Notes under the pieces: model-generated
Told to the model about the DNA's origin: nothing
Databases searched by the model: none
Seen by the model: only the letters and a program-made list of their open reading frames with translations
From: Oscillatoria sp. SIO1A7
GTDB lineage: Bacteria; Cyanobacteriota; Cyanobacteriia; Cyanobacteriales; Laspinemataceae
NCBI GenBank assembly: GCA_010672965.1
Contig: JAAHFN010000029.1
Location: forward strand, 1-64,000
Direction of reading: 5' to 3'
Length of the DNA stretch: 64,000 bases
Made by a program: the position numbers and the translations under genes
Shown: positions 7,969 through 62,815 of the stretch, one piece after another
Numbering within the stretch: position 1 is the first letter of the stretch
Layout of the letters: each line of letters begins with the position of its first letter

Positions 7969-8096
7969 GACGCCAGTCAGCGCGATCGCCGAATATATAG
8001 CAGTGCCGAACCGGAGCCAGAAGCTTAGCCAGAAACCCGGTTTTTTGGAAAAAACCGGGTTTCTCACATAGCCCTAATGACACTATTAGGACTTAC

Positions 8097-8318
8097 GCAA
8101 ATTGTAGAGACGTGCCCTAAGTGTAGCCCTAAGTGTAGGGGTCAACGGCCGTTGGCCCCTACCAGATATAGAGGTCATACCAAATCCGGTATAGATAGGA
8201 TGCAATCGATCGCTGCCGCCTAACGCCTAAAGGCGCGGCTATACAAACAAAGCCCAAGGGGCTCTCTTGGAAGAAAACATCCTTTATAAACCGGATTTAG
8301 TATCATGCGTAAGTCCTG
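8097..8318. mobile_element. Family A MITE interrupted by a family B element
   Basis: The ends read TAGGACTTACGCAA and TGCGTAAGTCCTG, with the direct repeat ACTAT on both sides (8092-8096 and 8319-8323). The interior matches the intact copy at 12626-12717 until 8177, where a second element (8178-8302) intervenes. The rest of the 7969-8449 gap holds a family E hairpin (8038-8063), and nearer amt an inverted repeat GAGTTGC..GCAACTC. Confidence 0.85.
8178..8302. mobile_element. Family B MITE nested in a family A copy
   Basis: The ends are TACCAAATCCGG and CCGGATTTAGTA with TCA on both sides (8175-8177 and 8303-8305), a TNA duplication. The interior carries, in inverse orientation, the AGCCGCGCC and GGGCTTTGTTTGT module also found in family C elements. 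No transposase is encoded. Confidence 0.8.
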
Positions 8319-12625: not shown

Positions 12626-12717
12626 TAGGACTTATGCAAATTGTAGAGATGTGCCCTCAGTGTAGGGGTCAACGGCCGTTGACCCCTACCAGATATAGAG
12701 GTGATGCGTAAGTCCTG
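12626..12717. mobile_element. Family A MITE, intact copy
   Basis: 92 bp with ends TAGGACTTATGCAA and ATGCGTAAGTCCTG and the duplication TCTCA on both sides (12621-12625 and 12718-12722). The core is a perfect palindrome GTAGGGGTCAACGGCC / GGCCGTTGACCCCTAC. Confidence 0.9.
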
Positions 12718-12908: not shown

Positions 12909-14459
12909 ATGTCGCGATCGCTTAGAGTTTCCTCAAAAAACATAGAAAAAGTCAAGTTCGCCCTCAAGCGCAATAACTATCCCAGCCAAAATGCTTTCGC
13001 CTCAGAAGTGGGACTTTCTCGGGCTACCGTCACCAGTTTCCTCAATGGCAGACCCGTCGATTTCCTCAATTTTACCGAAATATGCGAGAAACTAGGGCTA
13101 AATTGGCAAGAAATAGCCCATCAAGACTTCGAGGAACAAAACGACCCAGCTCCCCCAGAAGCAGTCAAGTCTCAAAATTGGAACGGTGCGCCAGACGCCT
13201 CTATTTTCTACGGCAGAGAAAAGGAAATCGCCGAGCTAAAAGAATGGATTTTGACAGACAACTGCCGTTTGGTCGCAGTGCTGGGGATGAGCGGAATTGG
13301 CAAAACCGCGCTATCGGTGAAGCTAGCCAAAAAAATTCAACCAGAATTCACCTGCCTTATCTGGCGCAGCCTGCGCAATCCACCTTCCGTCGCCGACCTT
13401 CTGGCAGATCTGCTGCAAACTCTATCTCCCCAGTCGGGGCAGCAGCCCTCAGATAGCACCGACGAAAACATATCTCGACTGCTCCAGTATTTCCAAGACC
13501 ATCGCTGCCTGGTGGTTTTGGATAATTGGCAGAGCATTCTCAAAAGCGGCGATTTCGCGGGGCATTATCGAGAAGAATATCGAGACTATGGCGAACTGCT
13601 TCGGCGAGTGGCTGAGGAAAGCCATCAAAGTTGCTTGGTGCTGACCAGCTCGGAAAAACCGCGAGAAATTGCCTTTCTAGAAGGAGAAACCCTGCCGGTT
13701 CGCTCTTTAGTTGTAGGAGATTTAGGGGAAGAAGCTCGCAAAATATTGCAGGCCAAAGGACTCTCGGGAGAAGAGGAATGGGGGAGACTGATTTTCCTCT
13801 ATCGCGGCAATCCCTTAGCTTTGAAGATAATTGCCACAACCATTAAAGACTTGTTTGCCGGCGATGTGGGTCAATTCTTCAAGCACAGTCTGGCCTTGGA
13901 CGTAGGCAATATTAGAGGCATCGTCGAGCAGCAGTTTCTGCGCTTGTCCCCTTTGGAAAGGGACATGATGTACTGGCTGGCCATAGAAGAGCAGCCACTT
14001 TCTCTTAAAGACTTGCGCGGTTTGTTCTCGGGATATAAGTTTTCTCAAGTAGTAAATACTCTGGAATCCCTGGACTTGCGATCGCTCGTTGAGAAAGCCG
14101 AGGAAGAAGTCGGTAGCAAGTTTACCCTCCAGCCTGCGGTTATGCAATACGTTACCAATCATTTGGTAGAAAAAATTTGCCAAGAGATAGCTAGTTTCAG
14201 CAAAAATCAGCAATTTAAACTGCTCGGGAACTATCCCCTGCAGAAACCTCAGAATAGCGATGGGCAGACTGGCCAGCCCCGTCGTATCTTTGTCTGGATT
14301 AAAAACCAACTCTATACAGAAGGGAATTTTAGCAATAACAGCAGCGTGCTAGAAAACCTAGAGGAAATCAAGGCGAGCTTACAAGGAAAACCGGCGATAG
14401 AAGTGGGATATGCAGGGGAAAATGTGGAGATTTTGCTAAAAGCATTGAACGCAGAATAG
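12909..14459 (+). CDS. NB-ARC ATPase with N-terminal helix-turn-helix
   Basis: With the start at the ATG at 12909 ([20 protein letters not shown]) the protein has 516 residues. A helix-turn-helix-like domain at about 5-72 ([18 protein letters not shown]) is followed by a linker [11 protein letters not shown], then an NB-ARC/STAND ATPase with P-loop GMSGIGKT (126-133), Walker B CLVVLDNW and the GNPLALKI motif. The C-terminus is winged-helix-like with no WD40 or TPR sensor, so the effector is short. Earlier ATGs at 12768 and 12861 are open in frame but lie outside the conserved region. STAND proteins of this form are common in cyanobacteria; roles are mostly unknown (regulation or defence). Confidence 0.85.
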
Positions 14460-14552
14460 GGCATGGGGCATTGGGCATTGGGCATTGGGCATTGGGCATT
14501 GGGCATTGGGCATTGGGCATTGGGCATTGGGCATTGGGCATTGGGCATTGGG
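14459..14552. repeat. GGGCATT heptamer tandem array
   Basis: About thirteen near-perfect copies of GGGCATT start right after the stop codon of the NB-ARC gene. The array ends before a GCCCCTACGCCCCGGAGGGCGGG palindrome. Open frames here simply repeat the three phases of the heptamer. Confidence 0.92.
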
Positions 14553-14620
14553 CCCCTACGCCCCGGAGGGCGGGCTACGCCTACGACTTGCCTCGGGATA
14601 AAATTGGGCATGTTCGCATT

Positions 14621-14843
14621 GGGCATTTCACTTTTGCAGGACTTACGCAAATTGCACGATTAATTATAGATATAGGGTTTGGTGCGCGGTGCGGCAGCCT
14701 ACAAATAGTATCTCTGCGTAAGTCCTGTTTTGTAAAAGTAGCCCTCTTTGGGCTTTGTTTGTGTAGCCGCGCCAGCCGCCTGGGAGGCGGGGCTTACGCC
14801 TATAGGCGTTAGGCGGCGTCCGCTTCAAAAGTGAAATGCTCCC
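14621..14843. mobile_element. Family C element split by a family A MITE
   Basis: The left end GGGCATTTCACTTTTG and right end CAAAAGTGAAATGCTCCC enclose the family C interior (GGGCTTTGTTTGTGTAGCCGCGCC and a GCCTATAGGCGTTAGGCGG palindrome). A complete family A MITE sits at 14637-14727. No clear 8-bp duplication flanks this copy, unlike the copy at 22437. Confidence 0.75.
14637..14727. mobile_element. Family A MITE nested in a family C element
   Basis: 91 bp, ends CAGGACTTACGCAA and TGCGTAAGTCCTG, flanked by TTTTG on both sides. Removing it with one TTTTG restores the family C sequence CACTTTTGTAA. Confidence 0.88.
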
Positions 14844-25848: not shown

Positions 25849-25940
25849 CAGGACTTACGCAAAACATCCATATTTGGTTGTTTGTAGGGGCAATCCCCCC
25901 GCGATTGCCCAGATCGCTCTTTGTCGTTGCGTAAGTCCTG
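25849..25940. mobile_element. Family A MITE
   Basis: 92 bp, ends CAGGACTTACGCAA and TTGCGTAAGTCCTG, flanked by TTGGG on both sides (25844-25848 and 25941-25945). The core contains GTAGGGGCAATCCCCCCGCG. It lies in the promoter side of the PEP-CTERM gene, 125 bp from its ATG. Confidence 0.92.
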
Positions 25941-45142: not shown

Positions 45143-46282
45143 CTAAATTAATGACTTAATGGCGTCAACTACTTGCTGTATTTGCTCGTCGCTCAAGCCA
45201 AAATACATGGGTAAAGATAATATCTGCTGGCATAGGGCTTCGGCGTGGGGGAAGTCGCCTTCCTGGTAGCCCAGGTATTTATAAGCCGGTTGGAGGTGAC
45301 AGGGAATCGGGTAGTGAATGCCGTTTTGGATGCCTTTGGCGCGCAGCTCTTCTTGGAGTATTTGGCGATCGACTGGGCATTCATCAGTTACGCGGATGAC
45401 ATAAAGATGATAAACGTGACCCGTGCCGCTTTGGTTTTCAATGGGGATAATTCCTTTGGATCGCAGCGGTTCCAGCGCCGCATCATATTTTTGAGCTACC
45501 TGGTTGCGCCACTGGTTCCAAGTCTGCAAGTGAGGGAGCTTCACATTGAGGATAGCAGCTTGGATGGTGTCGAGGCGGCTGTTCGTGCCCAGTTCTGTAT
45601 GTAGGTATTTTTGAGGGGCTCCGTAATTGCGTAAAGTTCGCATTGTTGTAGCGAGATGGGCATCTTGCGTCAAGATAATGCCGCCATCCCCAAAAGCTCC
45701 TAGATTTTTGCTGGGATAGAGACTAAATGCGGCTACAGTGCCAACAGAACCGGCGCGATCGCCTTCTCGCTCTGCTAGATGGGCTTGAGAGGCATCTTCC
45801 AATATTGTCAAGTTGTATTTGCTGGCTAGCTTCCGGAGTTGGCTCGGGGAAACCATCTGGCCGTAAAGATGGACGGGAAGCAGGGCTTTGGTTTTCGGGG
45901 TTATAGCAGCTTCGACAGCAGCTAGGTCAATTAAGGCCGTGTTTGGGTCGGCATCGACTAAGACTGGAGTTGCCCCAGCACGGATAACGCCGATTAGGGT
46001 AGCGATGAATGTGTTGGCCGGAACGATAACTTCGTCCCCCACCCCAATTCCGCAGGCTCCCAGACTCAGGGCGATCGCATCAGTTCCGCAAGCAACTCCA
46101 ATCCCATAGTCTGCATTACTTGCCATTGCAAAGGCAGACTCAAACTCGGCCACGGCTTTGCCCAAGATAAAATCTCCTCGCTGCAGCACATTCTCAATTG
46201 CTTGCTCTATCTTGTCTTGAAGCAATTCGTGCATCGGCTTGAGGTCAACAAAGGGAACGATCGCAGAAGTGCTAGCAGCCAT
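45143..46282 (-). CDS. DegT/DnrJ/EryC1/StrS family sugar aminotransferase
   Basis: PLP-dependent enzyme that aminates a keto sugar nucleotide. From the ATG at 46282 (MAASTSAIVPFVDLKPM) it has 379 residues; a TTG twelve codons upstream is also open but less likely. The PLP lysine lies in FSLYPSKNLGAFGDGG, preceded by the conserved ILEDASQAHLAE and VPANTFIATLIGVIRAGATP. HYPIPCHLQPAYKYLGY is typical of the C-terminal part. Next to export genes it probably makes an amino sugar for the polysaccharide. Confidence 0.93.
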   Translation of the reverse strand: MAASTSAIVPFVDLKPMHELLQDKIEQAIENVLQRGDFILGKAVAEFESAFAMASNADYGIGVACGTDAIALSLGACGIGVGDEVIVPANTFIATLIGVIRAGATPVLVDADPNTALIDLAAVEAAITPKTKALLPVHLYGQMVSPSQLRKLASKYNLTILEDASQAHLAEREGDRAGSVGTVAAFSLYPSKNLGAFGDGGIILTQDAHLATTMRTLRNYGAPQKYLHTELGTNSRLDTIQAAILNVKLPHLQTWNQWRNQVAQKYDAALEPLRSKGIIPIENQSGTGHVYHLYVIRVTDECPVDRQILQEELRAKGIQNGIHYPIPCHLQPAYKYLGYQEGDFPHAEALCQQILSLPMYFGLSDEQIQQVVDAIKSLI

Positions 46283-46654
46283 AAGCCAAAAAAACCTAAA
46301 GTGATTAATAAGGGACAAACCGGGCGCGCTATGAACCGAGAGGCCGTCAATAAATTAAGTAAAATTTACTCAAATTTTTGGCTCGAATTACATATCGCCT
46401 CTAGTGCGCGCCATAGTTGGTATATAAGTATCTATCTGTAGCATTTATAAATCCAAATGGTATAGCAAGTAAGCAGTTAGCTGTCAGCTTTTAGCACAAG
46501 CATTGCCAGGTGGGTTGCGGCGTTTCGCGCTTAGCGACATGAAAGGCAGAGCCTGCCCTCATATTGCCCTAGCCTTAATGCGTAGTGCTATAAGAAAGCC
46601 CAAGTCCCATACTTCTGTTATGCACCAGATGAGGGCATTTTGAGGTAGCGACCT

Positions 46655-47099
46655 TGTAAAGACCTTGTAAAGAGTCTGTAAAGATCTTGAAATTAATCTA
46701 GTCAGCCGATTCTCCTCGTAGGGAGCGAGAGGGCCTAGGGGCTTTCCGGCCGTAAGCTCTCTGCGCATACACTCCGGTGCCGATCGCGCTGACCGCTGAC
46801 CGCTGACCGCTTATTGCTGTAAAGACCTTGTAAAGAGTCTGTAAAGATCTTGAAATTAACAGGACTTACGCAACGACAAAGAGCGTTCGCGAAGCGTCTC
46901 CGCAGGAGACGCTTCGCGAACGCGGGGGGATTGCCCCTACAAAACTAGATATGGACAGTTTGCGTAAGTCCTGATTAATCTAGTCAGCCGATTCTCCTCG
47001 TAGGGAGCGAGAGGGCCTAGGGGCTTTCCGGCCGTAAGCTCTCTGCGCATACACTCCGGTGCCGATCGCGCTGACCGCTGACCGCTGACCGCTTATTGC
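46655..47099. repeat. 163-bp tandem duplication, second copy carrying a MITE
   Basis: Copy 1 (46655-46817) and copy 2 (46818-47099) are the same from TGTAAAGACCTTGTAAAGAG to GACCGCTTATTGC as far as I can compare. Copy 2 is longer by 119 bp, exactly one 114-bp family A element plus its 5-bp duplication. The unit contains no gene. The preceding stretch 46283-46654 also shows none. Confidence 0.92.
46860..46973. mobile_element. Family A MITE with empty site next to it
   Basis: 114 bp with perfect 14-bp ends CAGGACTTACGCAA and TTGCGTAAGTCCTG and ATTAA on both sides (46855-46859 and 46974-46978). The unoccupied sequence GAAATTAATCTAG is at about 46689-46701. The core is a 40-bp palindrome of GCGTTCGCGAAGCGTCTCC and its complement. 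Confidence 0.95.
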
Positions 47100-47135: not shown

Positions 47136-48059
47136 ATGGCAGCTACTTCCTCCCTACCCACAAGCGAGATTGCCAGGGAAATTACTGGCGAAATAACCGG
47201 CGAGACTTGGCAATGGCGCGGCCATAACATTCACTACGTCCGCAGTCCTGGCTCCCATCCCGGCCGCCCTCCTTTACTATTAGTCCACGGTTTTGGCGCT
47301 TCCACGAACCATTGGCGCAAAAACATCGCTCAATTGCAAAATGATTTCGAGGTTTGGGCTATCGACCTTTTGGGCTTCGGAGCTTCGGACAAAGCAGACT
47401 GCCAGTACAGCGGCGATCTCTGGCGAGACCAATTGCACGACTTTATCCAAGAAGTTGTCGGCGCACCGGTCGTTTTGGCGGGTAACTCTTTGGGAGGTTA
47501 TGCGGCTCTGTGCGTCGCGGCGCAGCGACCGGAATCCGCAGTGGGTCTGGTTTTGCTTAACAGCGCCGGTCCTTTTACTCCCGCCGAACCCCAGCCGGAA
47601 CCGCCTTTCTATCGCAAAGCTCTCGGTAGCGCTATGAAATGGCTGTTCTGGCAAGATTGGTTTAGTTTTCTGGTATTTCAGTGGACTCGCCGGCGATCGC
47701 TCATTCGCAAAACTCTGGAAAAAGTCTATCTGGACAAGAGCGCTGTCACAGACCAACTGGTAGAAGATATTTATCGTCCCTCTTGCGACCCTGGGGCAGC
47801 CCGAGTTTTTGCCTCAGTTTTCAAGACTCCTTCCGGCGAAAAAGTTGATGTCTTGCTTGGGGAGCTGACAAAACCTCTTTTAATGCTCTGGGGAGAAGCA
47901 GATCCTTGGATGAATGTCCCAGAAAGGGCTTTGTCTTTTCGGCAATACTATCCCGAGCTAACAGAATACTATCTGCAAGCAGGCCATTGTCCCCATGATG
48001 AAGTACCCGATCGCGTCAACGAGCTGATTCGCTCCTGGGTGCTGTCGTCCATTATATAG
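47136..48059 (+). CDS. Alpha/beta fold hydrolase
   Basis: A 307-residue alpha/beta hydrolase. The oxyanion region is LLLVHGFGASTNHWRKN, the nucleophile elbow is LAGNSLGGYAAL (Ser at about 117), the acid is in LLMLWGEADPW and the His in QAGHCPHDEVPD. It resembles cyanobacterial and plastid hydrolases related to haloalkane dehalogenases and pheophytinase-like proteins; the substrate is not known. The N-terminus includes a small ITGEITGE repeat. It stands alone, just behind the duplication. Confidence 0.88.
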   Translation: MAATSSLPTSEIAREITGEITGETWQWRGHNIHYVRSPGSHPGRPPLLLVHGFGASTNHWRKNIAQLQNDFEVWAIDLLGFGASDKADCQYSGDLWRDQLHDFIQEVVGAPVVLAGNSLGGYAALCVAAQRPESAVGLVLLNSAGPFTPAEPQPEPPFYRKALGSAMKWLFWQDWFSFLVFQWTRRRSLIRKTLEKVYLDKSAVTDQLVEDIYRPSCDPGAARVFASVFKTPSGEKVDVLLGELTKPLLMLWGEADPWMNVPERALSFRQYYPELTEYYLQAGHCPHDEVPDRVNELIRSWVLSSII

Positions 48060-60739: not shown

Positions 60740-60828
60740 CAGGACTTACGCAAATTGGACGATTAAGTTATATAGATAGCTTTTGGTGCGCGGTGCGGCA
60801 CCCTACAAATAGCATCTCTGCGTTCCTG
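60740..60828. mobile_element. Family A MITE with a decayed right end
   Basis: The left end CAGGACTTACGCAA is intact; the right end reads TGCGTTCCTG, lacking AAG. TTCAA occurs on both sides (60735-60739 and 60829-60833). The interior AAATTGGACGATTAAGTTATATAG and GGTGCGCGGTGCGGCACCCTAC matches the copy at 14637. Confidence 0.85.
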
Positions 60829-62579: not shown

Positions 62580-62815
62580 AAACCGCCGTCAGGGGAGAGA
62601 CCCGGGGACAAGGGGACTGGGGGACTGGGGGACTGGGGGACTTGGGGGCTTGGGGGCCAGCCAGAAAAGGGCCAGTGGACAAGGGGACAAAGGGAGATGC
62701 GCCCTAAATGTAGGGGCGATTCGCGCTCTTCGCGCTCTCGCCCCTACACATATAGAGAAAATGCGTAAGTTCTGGGGTTAATGCGTAAGTCCTGGGGTTA
62801 ATTAATTATTGCTCT
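62580..62815. repeat. GACTGGGG repeats and a rearranged family A element
   Basis: GGGGACTGGGGGACTGG repeats lie at 62605-62660. From 62696 a palindrome GTAGGGGCGATTCGCGCTC..CGCCCCTAC is followed by two successive family A right ends (ATGCGTAAGTTCTGGGGTTA and ATGCGTAAGTCCTGGGGTTA), while the left end is missing. Confidence 0.7.

Follow-up and report, generated by a model that had tools for sequence, protein, structure and literature searches.

An empty and a filled insertion site of a miniature inverted-repeat transposable element (MITE) lie side by side in the window, the whole stretch of 64,000 nucleotides of Oscillatoria sp. SIO1A7 DNA analysed here. A 163-bp unit is present twice in tandem, and its second copy carries a 114-bp MITE and a 5-bp duplication of the target ATTAA (Table 1). 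With both states preserved in one genome, the pair records a transposition event cleanly, although the event is an ordinary one. Judging by the sequences compared, the YAGGACTTACGCA ends of the MITE are the ends of elements of the ISAba11 group of the IS701 family. The history that probably led to this arrangement begins with a tandem duplication of the 163-bp intergenic stretch without long homology at the junction. The MITE would then have entered ATTAA of copy 2, duplicating the target by 5 bp, in a cut-and-paste reaction. The activity would have come in trans from a DDE transposase that recognises the 13-bp YAGGACTTACGCA and belongs to the ISAba11-like branch (NCBIfam IS701_2) of the IS701 family. 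The assignment would tie MITEs that abound in cyanobacteria, and that also occur in records labelled Poribacteria, Burkholderiales, Desulfobacteraceae and others, to the transposase group of the Acinetobacter element ISAba11, and it offers a testable helper enzyme for otherwise orphan-looking elements.

The evidence for the pair is a scripted string test. When positions 46860-46978 (the 114-bp element and the second ATTAA) are removed from copy 2, the remainder equals copy 1 in 163 of 163 letters. The earlier note had described this tandem, with a second copy longer by a 114-bp element and ATTAA, and the description is exact: there is no difference outside the insert, the duplication measures 5 bp, and the 14-bp ends that it called perfect are complementary in 14 of 14 positions. 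The borders of the MITE in one of the two units, and the length of the target duplication, are observed directly. A repeat search returned the tandem as two repeated blocks, one of 42 bp at 100% and one of 130 bp at 99%, the latter extending beyond the unit border. A MAFFT alignment of both units set the gap elsewhere, within a stretch of 11-bp repeats. This position was taken for a gap-placement artefact, and the string test of both units is decisive.

A 111-bp query from the unit (46690-46800) had long matches only at both units, together with six partial own-genome matches of 27-32 bp (40 of 240 own-genome candidates scored). In 18 other genomes it matched nothing. Since the own-genome candidates scored yielded no further long match, the unit gives no sign of being a dispersed repeat. 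On these comparisons, the empty/filled pair is not a product of chance.

Table 1. Features of the tandem units, the MITE, the neighbouring genes and further family members in the window.
Feature	Position	Strand	Basis
Tandem unit copy 1, empty site, 163 bp	46655..46817		equals copy 2 minus insert
Tandem unit copy 2, filled site, 282 bp	46818..47099		string comparison
Unoccupied target ATTAA, copy 1	46692..46696		string comparison
Left target duplication ATTAA	46855..46859		string comparison
Right target duplication ATTAA	46974..46978		string comparison
MITE, 114 bp, ends CAGGACTTACGCAA / TTGCGTAAGTCCTG, ISAba11-like (IS701 family) ends	46860..46973		string test, alignments
Left terminal inverted repeat, 14 bp	46860..46873	+	14/14 complementary
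Right terminal inverted repeat, 14 bp	46960..46973	-	14/14 complementary
Perfect palindrome in MITE, 41 bases, 19-bp arms, 3-nt loop	46883..46923		repeat/fold analyses
Left neighbour gene, DegT/DnrJ/EryC1/StrS aminotransferase family	45143..46318	-	PF01041
Right neighbour gene, alpha/beta hydrolase	47136..48059	+	PF12697
Family member, 232 bp, 5-bp duplication	8087..8318
Family member, 92 bp, 5-bp duplication	12626..12717
Family member, 91 bp, 5-bp duplication	14637..14727
Family member, 92 bp, 5-bp duplication	25849..25940

The inserted element has the properties of a MITE. It is short and multicopy, has terminal inverted repeats whose perfect part ends at 14 bp, and duplicates its target on insertion, as seen both against the empty copy and across the family (below). 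Its 114 bp leave no room for a transposase gene and code for nothing. When the focal MITE is aligned with 10 chosen copies, conservation is high in the right half (GGGATTGCCCCTACAAA...TGCGTAAG.TCCTG) and the middle is variable; further copies outside these 11 sequences are not all of the focal type. Aligned siblings show an arm, an imperfect partner or nothing of the kind at the position of the palindrome; in several, the arm is followed by the imperfect partner. With up to 3 substitutions allowed, the full palindrome occurs once in a 1.53-Mb sample of the genome, in which 16 half-palindromes were also found, 9 of them inside pairs of terminal inverted repeats. Hairpin-templated repair of a quasi-palindrome would be a plausible source of the perfect one.

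The family is large in the host, whose 9.08-Mb draft genome (9,081,372 bases in 182 contigs) contains 842 exact occurrences of the 13-bp end YAGGACTTACGCA, against 0 for a reversed-pattern control; the same end with C first occurs 510 times. Pairs were collected in a 2.26-Mb sample (2,262,822 bases in 119 stretches, window included) as nearest ends 61-300 bp apart with at most one mismatch per end. This gave 108 MITE pairs. An exact 5-bp flank match is found at 66 of these, the longest flank match is 6 bp at 7, and at the remaining 35 no exact flank match reaches 5 bp. When flanks of different copies were drawn as a control, 88 of 20,000 draws matched. Targets are 77% A+T, against 52% for the sample, and the confirmed copies fall into length clusters around 90 bp and 115 bp. 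These family-wide duplications are directly observed, and together with the four other copies in the window they give the 5-bp length independently of the empty site. The earlier note had regarded this length and the borders as otherwise hard to prove from a single genome, which is contradicted by the 66 paired copies and the four window copies that show the duplication themselves. The empty site is its most direct display.

Elements with the same ends and a transposase gene were found in other genomes. In Sphaerospermopsis kisseleviana NIES-73 (locus L543, 371-1515) an element of 1145 bp interrupts an IS1380 transposase gene; it has 19-bp perfect ends (TAGGACTTACGCATTGACA) and a 5-bp duplication, ATAAC. 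Its transposase is split into two reading frames near an A7 run, through either decay or programmed frameshifting, and the pieces score 232 and 123 bits against NF049921 (transpos_IS701_2), each below the cut-off of 250, which applies to the whole protein. A tblastn search with the larger piece matched 389 plasmid records, and the annotations under the best 40 of these include ISCysp21, ISCysp20, ISPna6 and ISAba11. Seven elements picked from the same 40 (L568-L574; from cyanobacteria, Polaromonas and non-clinical Acinetobacter) were examined along with the first. Exact YAGGACTTACGCA stands at both ends of six of the eight, which are 1101-1162 bp long. Five of the eight are flanked by a 5-bp duplication, among them the Acinetobacter element examined (1101 bp, exact ends). 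None was found at the other three, namely a Rippkaea element with exact ends and both Gloeothece elements, whose ends are altered (TAGGAGATACGCA twice in one, TAGGAGATACGCA and TAGGAGTTACGCA in the other). Four of the proteins (L569, L571, L572 and L574) reach 384-399 bits against NF049921 (cut-off 250). An annotated transposase of the group or an intact tested reading frame is present in five of the eight elements; that of L543 is the split one.

The MITE and the ISAba11-like elements (ISAba11, ISCysp20, ISCysp21, ISPna6; NF049921) therefore have the same terminal sequence and the same length of target duplication, and this match is a plain observation. ISAba11 itself has ends of about 13 bp and makes AT-rich duplications of 5 bp. 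The two differ in size and content, the six exact-ended elements measuring 1101-1162 bp and the MITE 114 bp without a transposase, and beyond the 13 bp most MITE ends differ from those of the larger elements. At MITE ends of the host genome at least four of the five letters of TTGAC are found at positions 14-18 in 20 of 84 cases and all five in 3 of 84, versus 0.47 in column shuffles. At MITE ends outside the host genome TTGAC occurs at these positions in 0 of 162, not even with four letters of the five, and the match stops at 13 bp.

No autonomous partner was found in the host, with PF01609 and PF13546 searched over the draft assembly and tblastn run over its fetched part. The whole-genome PF01609 search returned 13 places, down to 21.7 bits, and the four ISAba11-like proteins score 35-61 bits against this profile, so an intact ISAba11-like copy should have surfaced. 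With five transposase sequences as tblastn queries against the PF01609 loci and the sample, the matches were confined to distant relatives, one locus (L069) at 28-36% identity and another (L587) at 31% over 100 residues. An ISAba11-like transposase is probably absent from the host assembly; draft assemblies tend to lose repeats. Long pairs of ends were also sought. At up to one mismatch per end with a 5-bp duplication, the 2.26-Mb sample, examined for lengths up to 6 kb, held a single long pair, of 340 bp, and at up to two mismatches no pair over 330 bp was present in 1.53 Mb. Raising the limit to four mismatches and adding other loci produced 13 candidates, the best with 9 of 14 letters common between its ends, which were taken as chance. 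Among 111 genome-contig loci only one pair over 600 bp (L130) has a matching flank of at least 5 bp, and inspection of the open reading frames in the long pairs at L085, L130, L156 and L167 revealed none that read as a transposase. For solitary ends in two genomes (G039 and G043) short mates or none were found.

Under these results the MITE was most likely moved in trans by an ISAba11-like transposase. The source of the enzyme would then be external, or a copy that has since been lost or was left out of the assembly. An unrelated transposase that shares the ends by accident might have moved it instead, as no ISAba11-like transposase was found in the host genome and the subterminal sequence is mostly different. 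That reading is unlikely in view of the 13 identical bases at both ends in six of the eight elements and the 5-bp duplication in five. Other transposase families were also searched, the full set being PF01609, PF13546, NF033559, PF13701 and NF033541. Around the fetched IS1634, IS1380 and ISH3 loci (matches to NF033559, PF13701 and NF033541), to which this comparison applies, no YAGGACTTACGCA pair occurs except that of the nested ISAba11-like element, and an origin from these families was rejected. One IS1634 element has the ends CCTACATTCCGCAGGT / CCCACATTCCGCAGGT and a 6-bp duplication.

The same end is widespread outside the host. Thirteen other genomes of Laspinemataceae, none of the host's genus, contain it 2 to 116 times each. 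Public genome contigs contain two ends 60-90 bp apart in at least 111 stretches, and in 80 of the 111 listed a pair is flanked by an exact 5-bp duplication. Among the matches listed, record titles are mostly cyanobacterial (Nostoc, Okeania, Trichodesmium, Microcoleus, Oscillatoria and others). The exact duplication was also detected in records titled Poribacteria, Undibacterium and other Burkholderiales, Gammaproteobacteria, Desulfobacteraceae and Litorilinea; those titled Daviesbacteria, Anaerolineales, Chloroflexi and Caenarcanales matched, but the pair tested there lacks an exact 5-bp duplication. Many of the matched records are metagenome bins and single ones may be mis-binned, as the record titled Klebsiella pneumoniae probably is. 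Undibacterium hunanense, whose record title carries a strain name and no metagenome-bin label, contains 65 exact 12-bp ends; this speaks for a real spread. Among 225 viral-contig loci there were four short pairs with a duplication and no long one, and a plasmid BLAST search with two MITEs gave no match. In Sphaerospermopsis kisseleviana NIES-73 a 94-bp MITE (L121) with the same ends and a 5-bp duplication accompanies the ISAba11-like element L543 in one host. It is possible, and proposed here only tentatively, that the YAGGACTTACGCA MITEs form one population in records of several phyla, mostly in genomes that lack an autonomous partner, and that transient ISAba11-like transposases, such as plasmid-borne ones, mobilise them in trans and need only the 13-bp end.

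The earlier note held that the duplication must predate the insertion. This order fits the sequence and is its best reading; "must" is too strong, since excision, or exchange between a filled and an empty copy, gives the same sequence. Outside the units the left flanks differ immediately and the right flanks share one base, and these outer flanks are unlike the inner junction. The junction of the tandem thus lacks long homology, and the unit duplication looks illegitimate under any model.

If the insertion came first, the filled unit would have been duplicated and the MITE with one ATTAA precisely excised from copy 1, by slippage over a hairpin or by transposase. The insert does form a strong hairpin between 5-bp direct repeats (single-stranded DNA fold of -42.5 kcal/mol, z -10.4), an arrangement known from work on Tn5 and Tn10 to favour precise deletion, and the leftover sequence is identical under either model; this course requires one extra event and is improbable. 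Cyanobacteria are commonly polyploid, and the MITE might also have entered one chromosome copy, with a subsequent illegitimate unequal exchange between filled and empty copies creating the duplication and the pair in one step. Such an exchange yields exactly the observed order and agrees with the near absence of shared sequence beyond the units; it is rated as rather improbable. A chimeric join of filled and empty alleles from a mixed culture is very improbable: the assembly is a draft of 182 contigs and allele-joining errors yield identical units, but the outer flanks differ from the inner junction, and the assembly has a rated completeness of 100% and a contamination of 0.32%.

There are 0 differences over 158 sites between the units, which puts their divergence at about 1.9% at most. 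The bound dates from the duplication or from the last gene conversion. The earlier note called the insertion recent as it saw no differences in the arms; the exact inverted ends stop at 14 bp, and "recent" is fair only in the sense of this bound. Nothing shows the focal MITE to come from a fresh burst. Its closest near-full-length sibling among those compared has 80-81% identity (40 of 614 candidates scored; best 80% among the 66 confirmed copies), and other confirmed copies reach up to 98.9% identity among themselves. Within the part of the family compared, the focal MITE bears no sign of an origin in the latest burst.

MITEs and empty-site proofs have long been known. The transposition event itself is ordinary, and what is new here is the assignment of the ends to the ISAba11 group. 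The 12-base end is absent from the literature searched, and shorter pieces of it had matches that are unrelated by title or abstract, among those listed. No text in that literature combines "Poribacteria" with "miniature inverted-repeat". By title and start of abstract, the matches listed contain no link between ISAba11-like elements and cyanobacterial MITEs; the paper defining the ISAba11 family lies outside this scope and may report it. ISAba11 is called a member of the IS701 family in a passage of PMC7326120, which also cites a work titled as placing ISAba11 in a novel family with an HHEK motif. For Anabaena sp. 90, a passage of PMC3542288 describes "Type II" MITEs of 77-541 bp that do not evidently resemble the inverted repeats of insertion sequences from the same genome. 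The Nezha MITEs, mentioned or referenced in PMC10969869 and PMC3733652, are likewise cyanobacterial. No link between the present family and either group is claimed. The papers drawn on also include PMC7760358 and PMC6382973.

The 163-bp units are intergenic, between two divergently oriented genes, the aminotransferase on the minus and the hydrolase on the plus strand. Rfam at gathering thresholds detected a single tRNA and nothing else. A promoter scan gave 2 sites where shuffled sequence averaged 0.8, and a terminator scan gave 1 (the MITE palindrome) against 0.9; neither was given weight. Short repeats accompany the unit borders, with 11-bp repeats (GACCTTGTAAA-like) at the start of the tandem unit (46650-46689) and heptad CGCTGAC repeats near its end (46787-46811); both may have aided the duplication. 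Many heptanucleotide tandem repeats are scattered over the window (for example at 147-258, 470-552 and 14459-14553). At 62762-62794 two right MITE ends follow each other as a direct repeat at a distance of 20 bp. No left end is near, and the nearest one upstream is at 60740. This double end may be what remains of nested or truncated copies.
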